Source: Streptomyces sp. I6
Lineage (GTDB): Bacteria > Actinomycetota > Actinomycetes > Streptomycetales > Streptomycetaceae
NCBI GenBank assembly: GCA_003725745.1
Contig: RHDP01000001.1
Span: 5,745,501 to 5,809,500, forward strand
DNA: 64,000 nucleotides
Reading direction: 5' to 3'
Made by a program: the position numbers and the translations under genes. The notes beneath the pieces were generated by a model. That model did not search any database. It was not told the DNA's origin and saw nothing but the letters and a program-made list of their open reading frames with translations. Position 1 is the stretch's first letter, and each line of letters starts with the position of its first letter. Below are positions 39,576-49,911 of this stretch, piece by piece.

Positions 39576-40034
39576 CTATATGCGCAGGAGTTGCAGCTCG
39601 GCCAGGTCGGGCGGGGCGCGCCCGGCCGGGGCGGGAGCGCCGGTCCCGTTCGGCGTCGTGACGGCGGGTGGCGCGCCGAGCCCGGCGGCCAGTGCGGGCG
39701 GAGCGTAGGAGGAGCCTGCCCCCGGCGCCGCGCACGCCCCGTCGGCGTGGTCGAGGTGGTGCGGACCGCCGTCCGTGTGCGAGCAGCCCGGACCGGCCTC
39801 GGGTACGGACGGTGCGTGGGAGGCCTGCCGGTGCCCGGACGGTGCGTGGGGCGGCTGCCGGTGCCCGGACGGCCCGTGGGCGGTGGCCGCCGCGTCGTGC
39901 GGCCGGGCGGGTGTCCCGGCGCTTCCGGCCGGCGCCAGGGCGTGCATGCCCAGCACTCCCGCCAGGACCGTCAGCACCAGCAGCGCGAGCACGCGCCCCG
40001 CGGGGCGTGCGGGGCTCCTGGTGTGACGGGTCAT
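39576..40034 (-). CDS. DUF6153-type His-rich membrane-associated protein
   Basis: The 152-residue protein starts with one hydrophobic segment (LALLVLTVLAGVLGMHALAP) followed by a His/Pro-rich repeat (GHRQPPHAPSGHRQASHAPS). A motif with cysteines and histidines (GCSHTDGGPHHLDHADGACA) matches DUF6153, an actinobacterial family seen beside DUF305 and copper genes. The composition predicts metal binding outside the membrane. ATG 40034 was chosen as it begins the hydrophobic segment's basic leader (MTRHTRSPARPAGR). The gene lies upstream of DUF305 on the same strand. Confidence 0.75.
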   Translation of the reverse strand: MTRHTRSPARPAGRVLALLVLTVLAGVLGMHALAPAGSAGTPARPHDAAATAHGPSGHRQPPHAPSGHRQASHAPSVPEAGPGCSHTDGGPHHLDHADGACAAPGAGSSYAPPALAAGLGAPPAVTTPNGTGAPAPAGRAPPDLAELQLLRI

Positions 40035-40694
40035 GGGCTCATCGTAGGGCTTCGCCGGCGGACGGCTGTTCGGCCCCTTCCGTGGCGGGGCGGGCCAGGC
40101 CGCGCGCCCCGGTACGCACGCGCCGTGCGTGCGCGGTGCCCGCCGGGCAGTGGGCAACGGATGACTTCCTGGTGATACGGGGGCGCCGATCTTCACCCCC
40201 AAGAGGTGATGAGTCCCGCGTTCTCCCATGGGCTAATGGTCCACGACCGGCCCCGAGGCGAGCGAACGCGCACGAGAGGAGTGAAGGGCCTCACCGGCTT
40301 CCGCATCCGCGGATGCTTCGCGTGCCAGGCACCCCATGACTCTCTTTGACTCTCTTTTCGAACGAGTGCGACGACGGCTCCGCCGCATGAGCGGGGGAGA
40401 TCACGGCCGGCCCGCCGTCCGCCCGGGCAGGTGCTGACGCGGCCCCCGGTCCGCCCCAGGGCCCGCCGTCCTCGCGCATCCCCACCCCTCAGGACTCCCG
40501 TGCCCCGGCTGTTCCCCACCGGGTACCGGGTGCGTGCGCGGACATCGCCCTCACCACGGGCAACCGAATCCACCGGGTCCAGCGGCATGGGGTCCTCCGG
40601 TGAAGTGGCAGTGCCCGGAGGCAGGACCGGGAACCACCATCCGAACATCCAGTCAGGCATCCAGTCAGGTCGTGTCGCGTCAACGGGCGACGCA
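40035..40694. promoter_or_regulatory. 660-base leader region of the methyltransferase-to-exporter operon
   Basis: No long gene is seen. It contains a perfect 14-base palindrome gcatccgcggatgc at 40303-40316, a candidate operator, and a 33-codon ORF at 40336-40437 that is listed separately. Transcription of the six-gene operon probably starts here. Confidence 0.45.
40336..40437 (+). CDS. Possible 33-residue leader peptide (low confidence)
   Basis: ATG 40336 opens MTLFDSLFERVRRRLRRMSG, ending in PGRC and a stop at 40437. The N-terminal half is an amphipathic, strongly basic helix. No clear ribosome-binding site precedes it. It lies 20 bases after a 14-base palindrome and 258 bases before the biosynthetic operon. 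It may be a leader peptide, a precursor, or chance. Confidence 0.25.
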   Translation: MTLFDSLFERVRRRLRRMSGGDHGRPAVRPGRC

Positions 40695-41387
40695 ATGATG
40701 CGGGAGTTGGTAGCGCAAGTGACTACAGAGCTGTGGAACCCGGAGACATTCGACGCGGTGCGGCGGCAGCTGATTCCGTCCTTCGACCTGCTCTACGAAA
40801 GTGCCGCGAGCGTGGTCGCCGTCTCCGCGCCGGACGACGCCGGAATCCTCGACCTCGGCGCGGGCACGGGCCTGCTCAGCGCGGCGCTGCGGCGCAGGCT
40901 TCCCGCCGCCGAACTCCTCCTGATGGACCGTTCGGAGGGGATGCTGGACATGGCCCGGCAGCGCTTCGCCGGAGACCGGCGGGTGACCGTGCGGGTGGGC
41001 GATCTGCTGGACCCCCTGCCGGAGGGGCCGTTCGACGCGGTCGTGTCGGGCCTCGCGATCCACCATCTGCCCCACCCCGACAAGCGGCGGCTCTTCGCGC
41101 GGATCCACGGGGCGCTGCGCCCCGGCGGCGTGTTCGTCAACGTGGAGCAGATCCTTGCCCCGACGGCCACGTTGGAGGCGGCGTACGACCGGCAGCACGA
41201 GGAGCACGTCCACCGCTCCGGCACACCGGCCGAGGAGTGGGCGGCGGGACGGGAGCGGATGAAGCACGACATCTGCGCGGGTCTCGGAGACCAACTCGGC
41301 TGGCTGCGCGAGGCAGGCTTCGCGTCCGTCGACTGCCTGGCCAAGGACTGGCGGTTCGCCACCTACGCCGGCTGGACCGCGGCATGA
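40695..41387 (+). CDS. SAM-dependent methyltransferase (trans-aconitate/CmoA-like class I)
   Basis: This 230-residue class I methyltransferase has the SAM motif ILDLGAGTGLLSAALRRRLP near residues 52-71, the acidic ribose-binding strand AELLLMDRSEGMLDMARQRF and PFDAVVSGLAIHHLPHPDKR. The C-terminus (RMKHDICAGLGDQLGWLREA, then CLAKDWRFATYAGW) resembles small-acid carboxyl methyltransferases. It starts the operon: its stop overlaps the next ATG (ATGA). Tandem ATGs at 40695 and 40698 are both possible starts, without a strong ribosome-binding site. A role in protecting a carboxylate as its methyl ester is inferred from the hydrolase two genes downstream. Confidence 0.85.
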   Translation: MMRELVAQVTTELWNPETFDAVRRQLIPSFDLLYESAASVVAVSAPDDAGILDLGAGTGLLSAALRRRLPAAELLLMDRSEGMLDMARQRFAGDRRVTVRVGDLLDPLPEGPFDAVVSGLAIHHLPHPDKRRLFARIHGALRPGGVFVNVEQILAPTATLEAAYDRQHEEHVHRSGTPAEEWAAGRERMKHDICAGLGDQLGWLREAGFASVDCLAKDWRFATYAGWTAA

Positions 41388-42937
41388 GCGTCCCGCCGGG
41401 CACGGCAAGGGGGAGACGGCCCGAGGAAGCGGGAGGAGCGGCGGACCGGCCGCCGGGCGCCCCGGCGTCCGCCCTCTACGAAGCCCTCCGCACGGTCGCC
41501 TCCCGCCGGGCCGAAGCCACCGCCGTACGCACCACCGAGGGCGAGCACCTCGACTACACGGGATTGCTCCGGCTCGTCGACAGGATCTCCGGCGGGCTGT
41601 GGGCCCGCGGGGTGCGACCGGACACCGCCGTGGCGTTCCGGCTGCGCAACGGCATCGGCTACGTCGCACTGGTACTCGCCGTGGCCAGGGTCGGCGCCCG
41701 GTACGTGCCGCTGCTCGGCAACTTCGACGACTCCGCCGTCCGAGCCGCTCTGGCACGCACCCGGCCGGTGCTCCTGGTCACCGACGGACACCGGGTGACT
41801 CCGGCGGCCGGGCTGCCGACCGTGTCCCCTGACGCGCTGGCCGCGTCGGCTCCTCTGCGCGTCACCGAGGGCGGTCCCCGCCACACCGGCGTGTTCCGGA
41901 CCCTGTGGACCTCCGGCTCCACCGAGTTCCCGAAACTCATCGCCTGGCGGCAGGACAAGTTCCTGGCCGAACGGCTCCGCTGGATCGCGGACACCGGGAT
42001 CGCCGAGACCGACGTGTTCGCCTGCCGCCACCCCCTGGACGTCGCCCATGCCACCGACCTCCACATGTTCGCGGCCCTGCTGTCCGGTGCGGAACTCGTC
42101 CTCATCGATCCGCACGCCCCCGCCGCGGACCTGCTGCAACGGCTGCGGCACCACCGCGTCACCGTGATGAGCGCCCTCCCCCGGCACTACGAGCACCTCG
42201 TCGGCGCCGGCGAACGCGCCCGCCGCACCGGTGCCGACGCGAGCCTGCCGCACCTGCGTCTCCCGCTGTGCGGCGGAGCGTACCTGGGACCCGCGGTGGT
42301 ACGCCGCGCCGGCGAGGTGCTCGGCATCCGCATCCGGCAGGTGTACGGATCCACCGAGTTCGGCCTGGCGCTGGGAGACACGGACGGCGCTCGGCGGACC
42401 GCGCCGGGCATGGTGCCCGTGAGCGGAGTGAGCGCACGACTCGCGCCGCTGGCCGGCCACGGCCGCGCCGACGTCGGGGAGCTGGTGCTGCGCTCGGACT
42501 GCACCAGCGAGGGCTACCTCCACCACGACGAGGCGAACAACCGCACCTTCCGCGGCGGGGAGTTCTGGACCGGCGACCTCGCCCACCGCGCAGCCGACGG
42601 CGGATACCGGATCCTCGGCCGTGTCACGGACGCCCTGACGGGGCTGGACGGCCCCGTCACCGCTCCGATGCTCGACGAGGAGATGACCGCCTCCGGCACC
42701 GTCGACCAGGCGGTCGTGCTTCCCGTCCGGCCCGGCGGCTTCGGCCGCGAGGTGTACGTCGCCGTCCGTGCCGGCCGCCTGCGGGACGAGGCCGCGCGGG
42801 CGGTGGCCGAGGTCCTCGCCCACCACGGCCTGAAGGGGACCGTCCGTTTCACCGGCAGTATCCCGATGACCCCCGTCGGAAAGATCGACAAGCCCTTGCT
42901 GCGCCGCATGTTCGAGAAGGAGGCGACCCCGGGATGA
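41384..42937 (+). CDS. AMP-dependent ligase (ANL superfamily), operon gene 2
   Basis: The protein has 517 residues. P-loop LWTSGSTEFPKLIAWRQDK, A5-like QVYGSTEFGLALGD, A7 GEFWTGDLAHRAADGG and the catalytic lysine in PMTPVGKIDKPLLRRM show a working adenylate-forming enzyme. The hinge (LGRVTDALTGLDGP) departs from the usual GRxKDxI, and no carrier-protein domain is attached. The family adenylates a carboxylate for thioester, amide or lactone formation. ATG 41384 overlaps the previous stop and its own stop overlaps the next ATG, so expression is coupled. Its substrate is unknown. Confidence 0.88.
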   Translation: MSVPPGTARGRRPEEAGGAADRPPGAPASALYEALRTVASRRAEATAVRTTEGEHLDYTGLLRLVDRISGGLWARGVRPDTAVAFRLRNGIGYVALVLAVARVGARYVPLLGNFDDSAVRAALARTRPVLLVTDGHRVTPAAGLPTVSPDALAASAPLRVTEGGPRHTGVFRTLWTSGSTEFPKLIAWRQDKFLAERLRWIADTGIAETDVFACRHPLDVAHATDLHMFAALLSGAELVLIDPHAPAADLLQRLRHHRVTVMSALPRHYEHLVGAGERARRTGADASLPHLRLPLCGGAYLGPAVVRRAGEVLGIRIRQVYGSTEFGLALGDTDGARRTAPGMVPVSGVSARLAPLAGHGRADVGELVLRSDCTSEGYLHHDEANNRTFRGGEFWTGDLAHRAADGGYRILGRVTDALTGLDGPVTAPMLDEEMTASGTVDQAVVLPVRPGGFGREVYVAVRAGRLRDEAARAVAEVLAHHGLKGTVRFTGSIPMTPVGKIDKPLLRRMFEKEATPG

Positions 42938-43748
42938 TCCGGTTCGACGACCAGGGCAGTGGCCCCCGATAGTCCTGCTGCCGGGCCTCGCCGCAACCTC
43001 CCGCGTCTTCGACGGCACGGTACGCGACCTCTCCCGCGACCACCGCGTCATCACCCTGGAACTGCCGGGGCACGGTGACCGGACCGACCCCGCCGACGAC
43101 ACGCCCGCGACCGTCTCCGGTGCCGCCGGCGCCCTCCACACCCTGCTCGACCGGCTCGGCGTGACCGAGGCGACACTGCTCGGCTGGTCACTCGGCGCCA
43201 CAGTGGCCTACGCGTATCTGGAGCGCTTCGGCAGGAAGCACGTCCGCGCCCTGGTCTCCGTCGACCAGAGCCCTCGCCTGGTCCTCGACCGCGACTGGCC
43301 GCACGCCGCCTTCGGCGCGCTCGACGAAGACGGCGCCCGGGACCTGGCCCGGGGAGTCACAGCGGACTTCGCCGCGTTCACCGCCAACCTCGTCGGCGGC
43401 TCCTTCGCCGCCGGCACGGAGCCGGCGGCCGAGCCACACGGCCTGCTCGTGTCCGAGGCACTCCGATGCGACCCCGTCGCCGTCCGCTCCCTGCTGGCGG
43501 ACGTGACCGGCCAGGACTGGCGCGAACGGCTGCCCCTCGTGACCTCGTCGCTGCCGACGCTCTTCCTGCACGGTGCCCGCAGCCGGGTCTACCCCACGGC
43601 GCTGGGGCGCTGGCTGGGCGACACGCTGCCGTCCGCCCGGCTGGAGGTCTTCGACTCCAGCGGACACCTGCCCTTCCTCGAAGAGCCCGAGCGGTTCCTC
43701 CGTACCGTCCGCGCCTTCACCGCCCATGACAAGGAGCCGACACCGTGA
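42934..43748 (+). CDS. Alpha/beta hydrolase, operon gene 3 (frameshifted)
   Basis: About 271 residues. Start MIRFDDQGSG is followed by a break at the ccccc run near 42964-42968. One added C gives PPIVLLPGLAATSRVFDGTV. The oxyanion loop is LLPGLA, the nucleophile elbow GWSLGATVAYAYLERFG (GxSxG), and the catalytic histidine lies in SSGHLPFLEEPERF. The candidate acid is in FLHGARSRVYP. It could be an esterase that removes a protecting ester, or a cyclase or thioesterase-like release enzyme. ATGA and GTGA overlaps bind it to its neighbours. Confidence 0.85.
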
Positions 43749-44764
43749 CCCGTGACAGCGCGACGGCCGTGCGCAACGTGAGCTGGATCTACCCGGACCG
43801 CGGAACCGCCTGGCAGCGGCAGTACGAGGACGAAGGCGTCTGGTCGGCCTACCGGAGGATCGCCGGGGACCTCGGGCTGCGCATGACGCTCAACAAGCCG
43901 GAAGAGGTCGCGATCGACGTGACCGACGCCGAACGGCCGAAGGTCTACCTCAAGGGCGAACGCGTCACCCCCGAGGACACCCTGTTCGTGACGTCCCTGT
44001 GGTCCCTGCCCCATCAGACCCAGGACGTGTGCAACCAGCTGTTCCTCTACACCAACCTGGAACGGCTCGGCTTCTACCTGCCCATCCCGCCACGCCTGTC
44101 GTACATCGGCGTCGACAAGGCGGCCACCCTGCTGCACCTGGCGGGCAGCCCGGTGCCCCTGCTGCCGACCGTGCGGATCGGCAGCGGACGGGAGGCCATG
44201 ACGGGGCACTACGACCCCGCGCTGGCCGCGCTCGGCTACCCGATGATCGTGAAGCCCGCCTACTGGGGCATGGGCCTGGGGGTCACGGTCGTGCACAACG
44301 TCCACGACCTGCGCGGCACGATCGGTCTCGCCGGCGGGGCCGACACCGCGGTGGTCGCCCAGCCGTATCTCGCGGGGGCACGGGAACTGCGCGCCTACAT
44401 CGTGGACGGCAGGGCGCACACCGTGCTCCAGGGACGGAAGGAGGGCTACTGCCTGATGGTGACCAAGACCGTGGGCGGGCACCACGAGCGGGAGTACACC
44501 CGACTGCCCGGCGAACTGGCGGGCGCCGTCGAACACGCCGCCGCCCGCTTCCGCGGAGCCCCCTACTTCACGCTCGACTTCATCCACGACGGCGAGCGCT
44601 ACTGGATATCCGAGGTCGAACTCGACGGAGCGGTCGGCTTCAACGCGGACCGGGAGCAGAACCGCGCCGCGAGTGAGGTGACCAGGGCGCGCTTCCGCGC
44701 CTACGTCGAAGGGCACGCGCAGTGGCTCGCCCGGCCGGGCGGTGCCCACCGGAACGCCGCGTGA
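43745..44764 (+). CDS. ATP-grasp ligase, operon gene 4
   Basis: This 339-residue enzyme of the RimK/D-Ala-D-Ala-ligase-like ATP-grasp class forms amide or ester bonds through acyl phosphates. The ATP-binding core is YPMIVKPAYWGMGLGVTVVH, the second lobe AVVAQPYLAGARELRAYIVD, and the metal-binding end FTLDFIHDGERYWISEVELD with VGFNADRE. The N-terminal region (residues 1-130, VSWIYPDRGTAWQRQYEDEG) is the pre-ATP-grasp domain. GTG 43745 overlaps the hydrolase stop and the product's stop overlaps the next GTG. It is the likely amide-forming step, joining an amino acid to the product of the AMP ligases. Confidence 0.88.
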   Translation: MTRDSATAVRNVSWIYPDRGTAWQRQYEDEGVWSAYRRIAGDLGLRMTLNKPEEVAIDVTDAERPKVYLKGERVTPEDTLFVTSLWSLPHQTQDVCNQLFLYTNLERLGFYLPIPPRLSYIGVDKAATLLHLAGSPVPLLPTVRIGSGREAMTGHYDPALAALGYPMIVKPAYWGMGLGVTVVHNVHDLRGTIGLAGGADTAVVAQPYLAGARELRAYIVDGRAHTVLQGRKEGYCLMVTKTVGGHHEREYTRLPGELAGAVEHAAARFRGAPYFTLDFIHDGERYWISEVELDGAVGFNADREQNRAASEVTRARFRAYVEGHAQWLARPGGAHRNAA

Positions 44765-46098
44765 GCGACGTCAGCGCCGCCCCCGCCGGCGACGGGGCGA
44801 CCACTGCCGGCGGGGCGACCACTGCCGGAGACGGCCGGGCGGCGATACCCCGCCAGGCCGCACACGCGGGCCGCGGCGCGGGCGGGGAAGGGCGCCTCGT
44901 GACGGGCACCGTCGGCCGGCTGCCGTGGGACGCGGTCCTCGCCGCGGCGAGGCGGATCGCGGGCCCCGGCGGCGGCCCCGCCGTACCGCATGCCCCGACC
45001 GGTCTGCACGACCTCGCGGTGACCGCGGCCACGGACGTCCTCGCCGTGTCGCGTGCGACCACCCGCGGTGGCGGCGCCGCCGTCATGTCGAGCGGCGGAA
45101 CCACCGGCCGGCCGAAACTGACGTACGTGGCCCACCACCAGGCCCTCGATCGGCTGCTGCGCGAATGGCGGCCCCTCTCCCCCTCGGACACGCTGCTCAA
45201 CCTGTTCACGCCCGGCAGGATGTGGGCCTCGCACTACTACATGCACGCGCTGGCCGAACGCGTCGGATGCGACGTCGTCCCGGCCGGCCCCTTCGACCCG
45301 GGCGAGGTCGCGGACTGGCTGGGGATCCTCGCGGACGTCGGCGTCAACGCCCTGGCCGGCACCCCCACGTCACTCGCCGACTTCGCCCAGGGCCTGCTGG
45401 ACTCCGGGCTGACGCTACCCGTCGACAAGCTGATCTGGATGGCGGAACCCTGGACCCCGGCCAAGGAGCGCACGGTCCGCTCCGCCTTTCCCGGCGTCGG
45501 CTTCTGGGGGAACTACGGCTCGGTCGAGACGTACGTCATCGCCACCAACACCCCGGCGTGCGACGCGCGGACGCTGCATCTGATGCCCGACCAGCTTCTT
45601 GAGAGCGACGACGCCGGCGCGCTGCTGACAAGGACGGGCGACGGGTGGACGGTTCCCACCGTCCGCTATCGGCTGGGTGACCGGATCGCGCCGGTCTCGT
45701 GCCGCTGCGGCCGCCCCGACGGTCTGCGGGTGCTGGGCCGCGCCGACGACGCGATCAGCGTCCACTGCGTGGTGGTACGGGTCGCCGAGATCCTGGACGT
45801 GGTACGTGCGCACCCCGGGGTACGGGAGGCTCAGCTCGTCCTCGACCGGGCGGGCGGCACCGCGCACACGACGGACCGGCTCTGCGTCCGGTACGCGGGC
45901 GACGCGCCCGCCGGCGACGTCCGCGCACTCGTGCTGCGGGACTTCTACCACCTGGGGGTTCTCGCCCGGAGCCACCCCGAGGCGGTCACCGCCCGCGCCG
46001 TGCCGCGGGTGAGCCGGGTCGAGCGCACCGGCAAGATCCCGCCCGTCGTATGGCGCGAACCCGCCCGAGGCCCCGCCCCGTCGCCACGGGATGCCTGA
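44761..46098 (+). CDS. PaaK/F390-synthetase-like AMP ligase, operon gene 5
   Basis: The protein has 445 residues. The P-loop is AAVMSSGGTTGRPKLTYVAH, the A5 region GFWGNYGSVETYVIATN and the PaaK-type cysteine pair VSCRCGRPDGLRVLGRADD, ending with RVSRVERTGKIPPVVWRE, whose lysine is probably catalytic. This fold activates aryl or small acids without a fused carrier. The first 35 residues include a repeated TTAGGATTAG element encoded by a tandem duplication, which is probably disordered. GTG 44761 overlaps the ATP-grasp stop, and its stop (TGATG) touches the exporter start. A substrate cannot be assigned. Confidence 0.85.
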   Translation: MSDVSAAPAGDGATTAGGATTAGDGRAAIPRQAAHAGRGAGGEGRLVTGTVGRLPWDAVLAAARRIAGPGGGPAVPHAPTGLHDLAVTAATDVLAVSRATTRGGGAAVMSSGGTTGRPKLTYVAHHQALDRLLREWRPLSPSDTLLNLFTPGRMWASHYYMHALAERVGCDVVPAGPFDPGEVADWLGILADVGVNALAGTPTSLADFAQGLLDSGLTLPVDKLIWMAEPWTPAKERTVRSAFPGVGFWGNYGSVETYVIATNTPACDARTLHLMPDQLLESDDAGALLTRTGDGWTVPTVRYRLGDRIAPVSCRCGRPDGLRVLGRADDAISVHCVVVRVAEILDVVRAHPGVREAQLVLDRAGGTAHTTDRLCVRYAGDAPAGDVRALVLRDFYHLGVLARSHPEAVTARAVPRVSRVERTGKIPPVVWREPARGPAPSPRDA

Positions 46099-47585
46099 TG
46101 GGCAGGCTGCGGGGCAACCCCTGGGCGATCCTGTGCGTGCTGTCCCTGGCCTACTTCATGGCCCAGCTGGACATCTCGGTGCTGACCGTCGCGGTGCCCG
46201 ACATCACGAGGGACCTGCACACCTCCTTCGACCGTGTCGCGTGGGCGCTCGGTTCCTACGTGCTGGCGCTCGCCGTCACGCTGATCACCGCAGGCCGGCT
46301 CGGCGACCTCTACGGGCGGCGCCGTGTCTTCCGGGCCGGGGTGGTGCTCTTCACCCTGTCCAGTCTCGTGGCCGGGCTGACCACGACGGTGGACCAGTTG
46401 ATCGCCGCGCGGGCCCTGCAGGGACTGGGAGCGGCACTGCTCATTCCCCAGACCATGGCGCTGCTGGTGGAGGCGTTCCCGGTCGCGCGGCGCGGCACGG
46501 CGCTCGGTGTCCGAGGGACGGTCGGTGCGGCTGCCGCCGTGGTGGGGCCGCTGGTGAGCGGCCTGCTGGTGACGGTGCTCGACTGGCGCTGGGTGTTCTT
46601 CGTCAACGTGCCCGTGGGCACGGCCCTTCTCCTCGCCACGGTGCTCGTTCCGGACGACGACCGGGCACCCGGGCCGGCGCGGCTGGACGTCGTCGGAACC
46701 CTGCTGGTCTCCGTGTCGCTGTTCTGCTTCGCCTTCGCGGTCAGCCAGGGTGAGCGGTACGGGTGGCGGGGCTGGTTCTGGGGCCTCGTCGCCCTCTCGG
46801 CAGTGGCGTTCGCGGTGTTCCTCCGACAGCAGCGGCGGCGTCAGAGCGGCGACCCCCTGGTGCCGTTCGAGCTCTTCCGCGACCGCGACTACGCCCTGAT
46901 GAACGTCGTCTCGGTGTGCGTGTCACTGGCCTTCATGGGGCTGGTGCTCGTGTTGTCGGTGTTCTTCCAGTCGGTCCTCGCGTTCAGCGCGCTGAAGGCC
47001 GGGCTGGCCATCGTGCCCGCCGCGCTGTGCTCCATGGTGTTCGGCACGGTCGCAGGCCGGCTCTCCGATCGCCTGCCGGCCAAGTACCTGCTGCTGGCCG
47101 GAACGGGGCTGACCGTGGCCGGAATGCTGTGGACGGCGGCCGGGATGCACGAGGGAGCGGACTGGCCGCGGTTCGTCGCTCCGCTGTCCGTCATCGGTGT
47201 CGGCAACGCCTTCCTGTTCACTCCGCTCGCCGCGGTCGGGTTGCGCGGGTTGCGCCCGGAGCTGGCGGGCGCGGCCTCGGGAGTGCTGGTCACCACCCTG
47301 CAGATCGGCTCGATGATCGGAACCGCGCTCTCGGGTGCCCTCCTGGGAGGTGGCGCCGGGTCAGGGCCCACGGCGGCGTCGAGCCGGTCCGCCATGGTGC
47401 TGTTCGCCGTGGTCGCGGCACTGGCCGCACCTGCCTGCGCGGCCTCCTCCAGGACACCGAGGGCCGGCGGGACCGGGGACCGGGCCCCGGACGAGGACGC
47501 CGGCCGGGCGGCGGCCGGCCGATCTCCCTGCCGAGAGCCTCGGCCTTCCGGCCCAGGTCGCGGACAGGGAGGGGTGCCGCGGTGA
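46098..47585 (+). CDS. MFS drug/proton antiporter (DHA2/EmrB-like), operon gene 6
   Basis: This 495-residue transporter has about 14 predicted helices. The N-terminal signature LDISVLTVAVPDITRDLH, the cytoplasmic loop GRLGDLYGRRRVF and the motif C-like LVSGLLVTVLDWRWVFFVNV are typical of DHA2 (EmrB/QacA) proteins. The last 45 residues are Gly/Arg/Pro-rich and not conserved-like. It is last in the coupled operon (ATG 46098 overlaps the previous TGA by one base), so it is likely the exporter and self-resistance gene for the product. A hairpin terminator follows at 47767. Confidence 0.92.
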   Translation: MGRLRGNPWAILCVLSLAYFMAQLDISVLTVAVPDITRDLHTSFDRVAWALGSYVLALAVTLITAGRLGDLYGRRRVFRAGVVLFTLSSLVAGLTTTVDQLIAARALQGLGAALLIPQTMALLVEAFPVARRGTALGVRGTVGAAAAVVGPLVSGLLVTVLDWRWVFFVNVPVGTALLLATVLVPDDDRAPGPARLDVVGTLLVSVSLFCFAFAVSQGERYGWRGWFWGLVALSAVAFAVFLRQQRRRQSGDPLVPFELFRDRDYALMNVVSVCVSLAFMGLVLVLSVFFQSVLAFSALKAGLAIVPAALCSMVFGTVAGRLSDRLPAKYLLLAGTGLTVAGMLWTAAGMHEGADWPRFVAPLSVIGVGNAFLFTPLAAVGLRGLRPELAGAASGVLVTTLQIGSMIGTALSGALLGGGAGSGPTAASSRSAMVLFAVVAALAAPACAASSRTPRAGGTGDRAPDEDAGRAAAGRSPCREPRPSGPGRGQGGVPR

Positions 47586-47766
47586 GGCCGGACTCGGCGA
47601 TCGCGGACTCCCGGTCGCGCCTCATGCGCACGCTCCTCGTCAGCGGTCCGCCGAGGCGTCCGGACCCGTTGACACCCCCGGGTCACGAACGGCAAAGGCG
47701 AAGGCGTACCCGGCCCGAAGGGCGGACGCCCCGTCGCGGAGCGGCGAAAGGGTGACGGGGTGGTTG

Positions 47767-47817
47767 CCGCCCGACGGCGCGAGGCTGGCGCGACAGGACG
47801 TTCGCGCCGTCGGGCGG
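47767..47817 (+). terminator. Terminator of the six-gene operon
   Basis: A perfect 16-bp inverted repeat (ccgcccgacggcgcga, 19-base loop, tcgcgccgtcgggcgg) lies 181 bases past the exporter stop. Confidence 0.8.
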
Positions 47818-48324
47818 TGCTCGTGGGATCGGGGCGGGGCCGGTCGGGTACCCCGGGGCCGGCAGGCTCCGGAGGGGCCCGGGCCGCCGGAGGCGCGGGG
47901 CCGGGAAGGGGTGCGTCCGCCCCGCCGCTGACGGGCTCGCGCGGGGGACCCCCGAAAGGCGGGCCACCGGGGTCCGGACGTCCTCGGCCGTGTCCGGTCG
48001 GCGTCCGCCGTCTCCGGCCAGGTCCGGCCGTACTCGGCCGTCTCTGGTCGTCTCCGGCCGTGTCCGGTCAGGTCCGGCCGGCTTCCTCCGGGACCGCGGC
48101 GGGGCGATGGGCTCTCCGGCCGCCCCTCCCTCAGGTCTGGAAGGGGGCCCGGTCGGCCCGTACCACCGCACCGGCTCGCACACCGCCGCGGTCCTCGGGC
48201 GGGCGCCGGCCGTGCGGCCGGCGCCGTGTCCTCCCCGCCGGCCACCCCTCATCCGGGCCGGCGGTTCGGACGGCGTACGCGGGCGAAACCTCCCAGTCTG
48301 CGCGCGCACGCGGTCTCCGTCCCC

Positions 48325-48427
48325 CCCTCCGTGCTCCCCGGGCCGGGGCCCGCGAACGCCACGGACCGCGTGTTCGGCGCGGTCCGGCGCGGTCCGGGGT
48401 GGCCGAGCCGGACCGCGGGGAGCACGG
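48325..48427 (-). terminator. Branched inverted-repeat structure 3' of catalase
   Basis: Outer arms ctccgtgctccccg (48325-48338) and cggggagcacggag (48414-48427) are a perfect 14-bp match. The 75 bases between them contain an inner hairpin ggaccgcg / cgcggtcc (48361-48383) and extra cgcggtcc copies. It lies just past the catalase stop and probably ends its transcript. Confidence 0.6.
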
Positions 48428-48448
48428 AGCGAACGGGGGAGCGGGGGC

Positions 48449-49911
48449 TCAGTCCTCGCGCAGGGCGCGGACCGCCTCCTCCACCCGCTTGCCGTAGTCC
48501 GGGTCGGCGGCGCGGAAATGGGCGAGGTTCCTGTCGATCACGTCGTCGCGGGAGACCTGGGACAGTCCGCCGGCGATGTTCGCCACCAGGCGCGTCTTCT
48601 CCTCCTCGGACATCAGGCGGTAGAGCTCACCGGCCTGGTGGAAGTCGTCGTCCTTGGCGTGCGGCGGTGCGGGGTGCGTGCCGGTGTGGCCGTGCAGGGC
48701 CAGCGGTGCCGACAGGGCGGCGTCCGTCTGCACGGGGCCCGCGTACGAGTTCGGCTCGTAGTTCTTGTCGTGGCGGGAGCCGTTGCGGGTGGCCATGAAG
48801 CCGTCGCGGCCGTAGTTGTCGGCGCCGCCGGGGACGGCCTTCGGCGCGTTCACCGCGAGCTGGGTGTGGTTGACGCCGAGACGGTAGCGGTGGGCGTCCG
48901 CGTAGGCGAACAGACGGCCCTGGAGCATCTTGTCCGGCGAGGGCCCGATGCCCGGCACGAAGTTGTTCGGCGAGAACGCCGCCTGCTCGACCTCGGCGAA
49001 GACGTTGTCGGGGTTGCGGTCGAGGACCAGCCGTCCGACGCGCTGAAGCGGGTAGTCGCCGTGCGGCCACACCTTGGTGAGGTCGAACGGGTTGAAGCGG
49101 TAGTCCGCCGCCTCGGCCGCGGGCATGATCTGCACGTACAGCGTCCAGGACGGGTTCACGCCCCGCTCGACGGCCTGCAGCAGGTCCGTCTGGTGCGAGT
49201 TGGGGTCGCTGCCCGCGACCTCCGCGGCCTGCTCGCTGCTCATGCAGCGGATGCCCTGGTTGGTCTTGAAGTGGTACTTGACGAAGAAGGCCTCGCCCTC
49301 GGCGTTCGTCCACTGGTAGGTGTGGGACCCGTAGCCGTTCATGTGGCGGTACGAGGCCGGGATGCCCGGTCGCCCATCAGCCAGGTGATCTGGTGCGTGG
49401 CCTCCGGCGCGTGGGCCCAGAAGTCCCAGACGTTGTCCGGCTCCTGCTTGCCGGTGAACGGGTCGCGCTTCTGGGAGTGGATGAAGTCGGGGAACTTGAC
49501 CGGGTCCTTGACGAAGAACACCGGGGTGTTGTTGCCGACGAGGTCGTAGTTGCCCTCCTCGGTGTAGAACTTCACCGCGAAGCCCCGCGGGTCGCGGACG
49601 GCGTCCGCGCCGCCGAGCGAGTCCGCCACGGTGGAGAAGCGCAGGAACAGCTCGGTGCGCTTGCCGACCGTGTCCAGGAAGGCGGCCCGGGTGAAGCCGG
49701 TGACGTCGTCGGTCACCTCGAAGTAGCCGTACGCGCCGGAGCCGCGCGCATGGACGACCCGCTCCGGGATGCGCTCGCGGTTGAAGCGGGCGAGCTTCTC
49801 CAGCAGGTGCTGGTCCTGGAGCAGGAGCGGGCCACCGACGCCGGCGGTGGCGGAGTTCTGGTTGTCGGCGACCGGGGCGCCGGACTCGGTCGTAAGCACG
49901 CGCTGCGTCAT
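48449..49911 (-). CDS. Heme catalase (frameshifted)
   Basis: This is a monofunctional clade-3-like small-subunit catalase of about 487 residues. Distal histidine region [20 protein letters not shown], the asparagine stretch [20 protein letters not shown], and the proximal tyrosine region [20 protein letters not shown] are present. After [10 protein letters not shown] the frame breaks at a ggg run (ccc on plus) near 49366-49368. One added base gives [19 protein letters not shown] and continues to the stop at 48449. ATG 49911 ([13 protein letters not shown]) was chosen as the family start. It detoxifies hydrogen peroxide in the cytoplasm and lies 3' of glxR on the same strand. Confidence 0.95.

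Follow-up and report, generated by a model that had tools for sequence, protein, structure and literature searches.

A predicted cystargolide-type beta-lactone dipeptide operon in Streptomyces sp. I6 without a linked isopropylmalate synthase match

Beta-lactone dipeptides inhibit the proteasome and ClpP, and analogues of one of them, cystargolide, have drawn the interest of medicinal chemistry (PMC11427300, PMC11408123). The enzymes of the cystargolide (cys) pathway have been reconstituted in vitro: CysG methylates C1 of a 3-alkylmalate, after which CysF activates C4 by adenylation and forms the lactone ring; CysE then hydrolyses the methyl ester, and the first and second amino acids are attached by CysC and CysD, respectively (PMC11427300). 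In the belactosin (bel) pathway the corresponding proteins are BelI, BelH, BelR, BelV and BelU. Here we describe a six-gene operon on the plus strand (from 40695 or 40698 to 47585) of a 64,000-nucleotide stretch of Streptomyces sp. I6, referred to as the window (contig RHDP01000001.1, positions 5,745,501 to 5,809,500). The operon adds a member to the cystargolide/belactosin family and does not represent a new kind of pathway; judged from its protein sequences, it very probably encodes a cystargolide-type route to a beta-lactone-capped dipeptide. The original prediction, made from the letters of the DNA, had pointed to chemistry of the belactosin/cystargolide kind; the tie proves stronger than a likeness, as the genes are homologues of those enzymes.

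The first two genes match characterized enzymes directly. Compared with solved structures by phmmer, the methyltransferase (40698..41387) matched CysG (PDB 9FCD) at E 6e-98 and BelI (9FCE) at E 8e-94; an ATG at 40695 is also a possible start, and counting from the second ATG, at 40698, fits the CysG numbering. His122, His123, Asp191, Arg22, His167 and Arg187 are identical in all 17 rows aligned, as are Ile26, Leu119 and Phe220, the side-chain pocket included among the key residues named in PMC11408123. The window thereby holds a CysG/BelI-type O-methyltransferase, predicted to depend on S-adenosylmethionine (SAM) and metal, with a His-His-Asp metal site. The AMP ligase (41384..42937) is matched best among solved structures by 8RA0 at E 1e-152, the runner-up reaching only 8e-23. 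This structure is CysF, the cystargolide beta-lactone synthetase, in which His192 has been proposed as the general base (PMC11427300). The window protein is 55% identical to CysF across 487 aligned positions, and the equivalent of His192, kept in all 18 aligned AMP-ligase rows, is present in it, as in an AMP-forming beta-lactone synthetase of the CysF/BelH type. A fusion of CysF and CysE was considered for the window and rejected: the two genes occupy different frames, and a stop and a start codon intervene. Searches with Pfam and NCBIfam gave the six genes mostly general family names (class I methyltransferase, AMP-binding enzyme, alpha/beta hydrolase, a weak D-Ala-D-Ala-ligase-like ATP-grasp match, a weak PaaK-like AMP-binding match and DHA2 efflux protein of the major facilitator superfamily, MFS), from which an unrelated, undescribed six-enzyme pathway might be read. 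The matches to CysG, BelI and CysF are specific, however, and span nearly the full length; given these and the shared gene order, that reading is extremely improbable.

For the next three genes the roles of CysE, CysD and CysC are assigned by family, position and elimination. The putative cysE/belR-type methyl esterase (42934..43748) is an alpha/beta hydrolase with putative triad residues, its homology running from 42972 on. The ATP-grasp ligase (43745..44764), a candidate cysD/belU-type enzyme for the second amino acid, gives a weak D-Ala-D-Ala ligase match, and the PaaK-like ligase (44761..46098), with an AMP-binding domain and a PaaK-like match, would by elimination be the cysC/belV-type amide bond synthetase for the first. 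The last gene (46098..47585) encodes a DHA2-family MFS protein, a likely exporter, that scores above the TIGR00711 cut-off. The original prediction had set two adenylating enzymes to coupling a protected acid to an amino acid before closure or release; their roles divide otherwise, one being a lactone-forming synthetase and only the other a predicted amide ligase. It was right about the stop/start overlaps, which successively measure 4, 4, 4, 4 and 1 bases (junction sequences ATGA, ATGA, GTGA, GTGA and TGATG), and about the absence of a carrier protein, a nonribosomal peptide synthetase and a polyketide synthase, none of which was found by Pfam search in the six genes and ten flanking reading frames.

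The steps established for the cys and bel enzymes, carried to the window proteins by homology, suggest the following route. The methyltransferase would esterify C1 of a 3-alkylmalate, most likely (2R,3S)-3-isopropylmalate; the CysF-like enzyme would adenylate C4, whereupon the 2-hydroxyl would close the beta-lactone; and the CysE-like hydrolase would take off the methyl ester. The PaaK-like CysC homologue would then couple the lactone acid with one amino acid and the ATP-grasp CysD homologue would attach a second, the MFS protein exporting the product. Homology, gene order and conserved catalytic residues are observed here, and from them we infer the substrates, amino acids, product and export.

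Related loci were sought by several searches. Among 392 genomes from the genus, 6 carry the AMP ligase at E up to 1e-60, that of the window being one of them; a search with the ATP-grasp ligase across 200 genomes of the family brought in G503, and a single-sequence AMP-ligase scan of the genome-contig collection returned no relative. A scan of 84,980 species genomes with the methyltransferase alignment, which depends on two short peptide patterns, yielded 13 loci, namely six of the cys type (L054, L055, L058, L059, L065 and L066), five with isopropylmalate synthase (IPMS) and LeuC (L056, L060, L061, L062 and L064) and two with IPMS, LeuC, LeuD and DUF6282 (L057 and L063). As L058 is the contig region of L043 (from genome G250) and L057 that of L044, the distinct cys-type loci number 11, including the window. 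The order methyltransferase, AMP ligase, hydrolase, ATP-grasp ligase, PaaK-like ligase and MFS gene is found in the window and in nine of the ten others, all nine with the MFS gene after the PaaK-like gene, and since it is kept in relatives it is not due to chance. In S. toxytricini (L043/L058) the first five genes are followed by a radical SAM gene, with no adjacent MFS gene; in Terrilactibacillus (L066) all genes but the ATP-grasp gene are matched in pieces or in part. The window ATP-grasp ligase is 47-63% identical to those at the same position in the ten other cys-type loci, and the PaaK-like ligase 54-58% identical to those of the eight other unbroken actinobacterial loci and 46% to that of L065, the broken gene of L066 being left out of this range.

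Two of these loci connect the group to described systems. L042, whose CysF is 79% identical to 8RA0, appears by that measure to be close to the cys cluster itself, and we read its order as running from cysG to cysA; a near-identical CysF, sought in 70 genomes of the genus of G503, gave only two matches, at 52% and 61% identity. L065, from Bradyrhizobium huanghuaihaiense, has a fused CysF-CysE frame with the linker ATPVNMR. Because the same linker is quoted for the tested enzyme BhCysFE, which turns the methyl ester into the lactone acid (PMC11427300), we take L065 to be the BhCysFE locus. It shares the gene order of the window and gives no IPMS match in 20 kb, but CysF and CysE are fused there and separate in the window, and its AMP ligase is 38% identical to that of the window. 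The term "undescribed" therefore fails for this kind of operon, whose order surrounds a published enzyme, and the expectation that the order would be absent from characterized clusters fails with it, on account of the BhCysFE locus and, by our reading of L042, probably of the cys cluster too. Cystargolide-like clusters at 90% are reported from two other Streptomyces strains (PMC12689991). According to PMC11427300, a supplementary figure gives genome-neighbourhood diagrams for relatives of CysF, and loci like these may already be drawn there; in the titles and abstract openings searched, no account of an IPMS-less cys-type group was found.

Set beside the cystargolide system of K. cystarginea, the window has homologues of CysG and CysF by sequence, together with a putative methyl esterase, a PaaK-like AMP ligase, an ATP-grasp ligase and an exporter in the order of L042 and L055; it differs in having no linked IPMS (cysA-like) gene, in an interrupted hydrolase frame and in a separate ligase subclade. 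In the ATP-grasp and PaaK trees it groups with L043, L045, L047 and L059, with support of 99/99 and 99/97. In the AMP-ligase tree the window pairs with L059 (96/91) and L045 lies elsewhere, L065 and L045 being long branches of unsure placement, and CysF, L042, L054 and L055 form a separate set (99/100). None of the characterized enzymes placed falls within the window's ligase subclade, and for this reason the dipeptide could be a new congener.

Several observations weigh against a cystargolide-type pathway. The equation of the hydrolase with CysE, of the ATP-grasp ligase with CysD and of the PaaK-like ligase with CysC is drawn from family, position and elimination. Moreover, the His-His-Asp residues also occur in all eight stand-alone methyltransferases checked from another actinobacterial family, f20, so that the motif is necessary but not sufficient for the pathway. 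The methyltransferase alone was rejected as a pathway marker: in a search of 394 genomes from the class, methyltransferase matches (49-55% identity) came from 11 genomes other than that of the window, and in the wider flanks of eight of these, two of which end early at contig ends, no other operon gene was found nearby except for two weak AMP-ligase matches (26% and 28%). These stand-alone CysG-like proteins (L089-L096; family f20, 48-55% identity) carry the full metal site and have Val in place of Ile at pocket position 26.

A further point concerns the gatekeeper, residue 18, which is Phe in BelI and Tyr in CysG (PMC11408123). It is Phe in the window, as in BelI and not as in CysG, and might suggest a belactosin-type pathway fed by 3-sec-butylmalate from dedicated IPMS and LeuCD homologues. 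Belactosin is alike in its homologous methyltransferase (E 8e-94 to BelI, as above) and lactone synthetase. Phe18 is, however, the commoner residue in cys-type loci too, being found in 6 of the 10 methyltransferases aligned (the window counted and L066 left out), and the window contains no match to IPMS, LeuC or LeuD. The five loci with IPMS and LeuC, which we take to be belactosin-type without direct comparison to a bel cluster sequence, resemble the window in a PaaK-like ligase (L056, L062 and L064) and a hydrolase (L062 and L064), but differ in carrying IPMS and LeuC, with LeuD in four of the five (L056 is cut off), and in the arrangement of their genes. The window also groups apart from the LeuC/LeuD loci in the AMP-ligase and PaaK trees, and a belactosin-type pathway is, on these grounds, very unlikely.

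The hydrolase raises a different difficulty. The family named in the original prediction stands, but an intact frame from ATG 42934 does not: that frame meets TAG at 42970-42972 after 12 codons, and homology starts at about 42972 in a different frame. As assembled, the gene is interrupted near its start. All five relatives aligned are open across the stretch that is broken in the window; four of them, as taken, begin at a start codon, and that of L045 was taken from a place without one. The downstream frame carries Ser73, Asp98 and His232, matching the published Ser/Glu/His triad of the methyl esterase (PMC11427300) with Asp for Glu. Of the 12 rows aligned, two (the window and L046) have Asp at position 98, in register with the triad Glu, and the remaining 10 have Glu. 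With the esterase half of the fused BhCysFE frame of L065 the window hydrolase shares 36% identity.

If the frameshift were a real mutation, the cluster would be decaying and the strain would make no de-esterified lactone; the break does fall between the start codon and the conserved domain. Yet the five other operon genes are open and keep their codon-position GC bias. A catalase at 48449-49911 on the minus strand of the same window is likewise split into two frames, and both halves share a single frame in all six relatives examined. The genome, 7,054,598 bases in 2 contigs, is 87.42% complete, whereas 379 of the 392 genomes from the genus reach a completeness of 90% or more with no more than 5% contamination. 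Because the catalase is split too and completeness is low for a 2-contig genome, assembly indels are the more likely cause of the break, and we consider decay unlikely.

The last point against a cystargolide-type pathway is that the window contains no match to a linked, cysA-like IPMS, an absence beside the operon that the original prediction had rightly noted. An IPMS gene stands as the seventh gene in 2 of the 11 cys-type loci (L042 and L055); within the stretches examined no linked match was found in the other nine, which include the window, the BhCysFE locus and the other members of the window's subclade (L043, L045, L047 and L059). Since eight of the ten other cys-type loci give no match, we count a linked IPMS among the features of the cys and bel clusters, though not as one demanded of every member. 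Elsewhere in the window's genome there is one strong IPMS match (E 9e-203, 65% identical to the L042 enzyme) and two faint ones; a search with the broader HMGL-like family marked 5 places, and LeuC gave one strong match (E 2e-196) and a second, weaker match split in two. The route to leucine passes through 3-isopropylmalate. With no IPMS match in the window and one strong match outside it, the simplest reading is a supply of the precursor by leucine biosynthesis, which we regard as probable.

The pathway might instead start from a malate-type substrate other than 3-isopropylmalate, hence the missing IPMS. The nine of 11 cys-type loci that share this absence are consistent with such a substrate, as is a ligase subclade that holds none of the characterized enzymes placed, but leucine biosynthesis already makes 3-isopropylmalate and the methyltransferase pocket of Ile26, Leu119 and Phe220 is invariant across the 17 rows, making another substrate distinctly unlikely. 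Returning to the cystargolide-type reading, we propose tentatively, with a little less than even confidence, that the window's subclade lacks a dedicated IPMS, has its warhead precursor supplied directly by leucine biosynthesis and relies on its diverged ligases to build beta-lactone dipeptides with amino acids unlike those of cystargolide and belactosin, which would be proteasome or ClpP inhibitors not yet isolated.

Some features of the window and of the related loci stand apart from these questions. A strong terminator had been predicted after the last operon gene. A repeat search found there a perfect inverted repeat (47767..47817) with 16-nucleotide arms (47767-47782 and 47802-47817) that starts 182 bases past the operon's last stop and has no T-run; it is a possible terminator, but when 40000-48500 was scanned for terminators, none was called downstream of the operon, and the 2 matches obtained, against 1.3 expected by chance, both lie inside the MFS gene. 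Beside the cys-type clusters of L043 (3564-6180) and L047 (3859-6406) lies a B12-type radical SAM gene with DUF5825, which in L043 scores above the cut-off of TIGR03975, a C-methyltransferase family of ribosomally synthesized and post-translationally modified peptides (RiPPs); its protein may act on the dipeptide as a methylating enzyme, or the gene may be part of a neighbouring RiPP cluster. L044:4354-11473 (the region of L057) and L063:8220-15175 represent a third type of CysF-bearing locus, with IPMS, a CysG-like methyltransferase, LeuC, LeuD, DUF6282 and a CysF-like enzyme; no hydrolase, ATP-grasp or PaaK-like match was found within 20 kb, and the literature search returned no mention of DUF6282. 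L070 (genome G572) holds a methyltransferase, a CysF-like enzyme, a distant HMGL-like gene (25% identical to IPMS) and the start of LeuC. The six fetched loci L048-L053 share a cluster whose ATP-grasp ligase is 42-47% identical to that of the window. As seen in L049:2707-15152, it comprises two AMP ligases and a further weak AMP-binding match, a carrier protein, an amine oxidase, a KamA-like radical SAM protein (below cut-off), an ATP-grasp ligase, a PaaK-like ligase, an MFS protein and an SDR. Beyond the window's own and that of G503, ATP-grasp ligases of this type occur in 33 of the 200 family genomes, 31 of them from one genus.

The interest of the cluster lies mainly in which amino acids its ligases select. 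Enzymatic cascades toward analogues have already been built with the cys enzymes, and the two ligases of the window, which share only 46-63% identity with their counterparts in the other cys-type loci (the broken PaaK-like gene of L066 aside), could widen the range of amino acids available for coupling to the lactone. For the family as a whole, the loci assembled here suggest that a dedicated IPMS is optional, nine of the 11 cys-type loci having none in the stretches examined, and genome-mining rules that demand one could therefore miss many cys-type loci.

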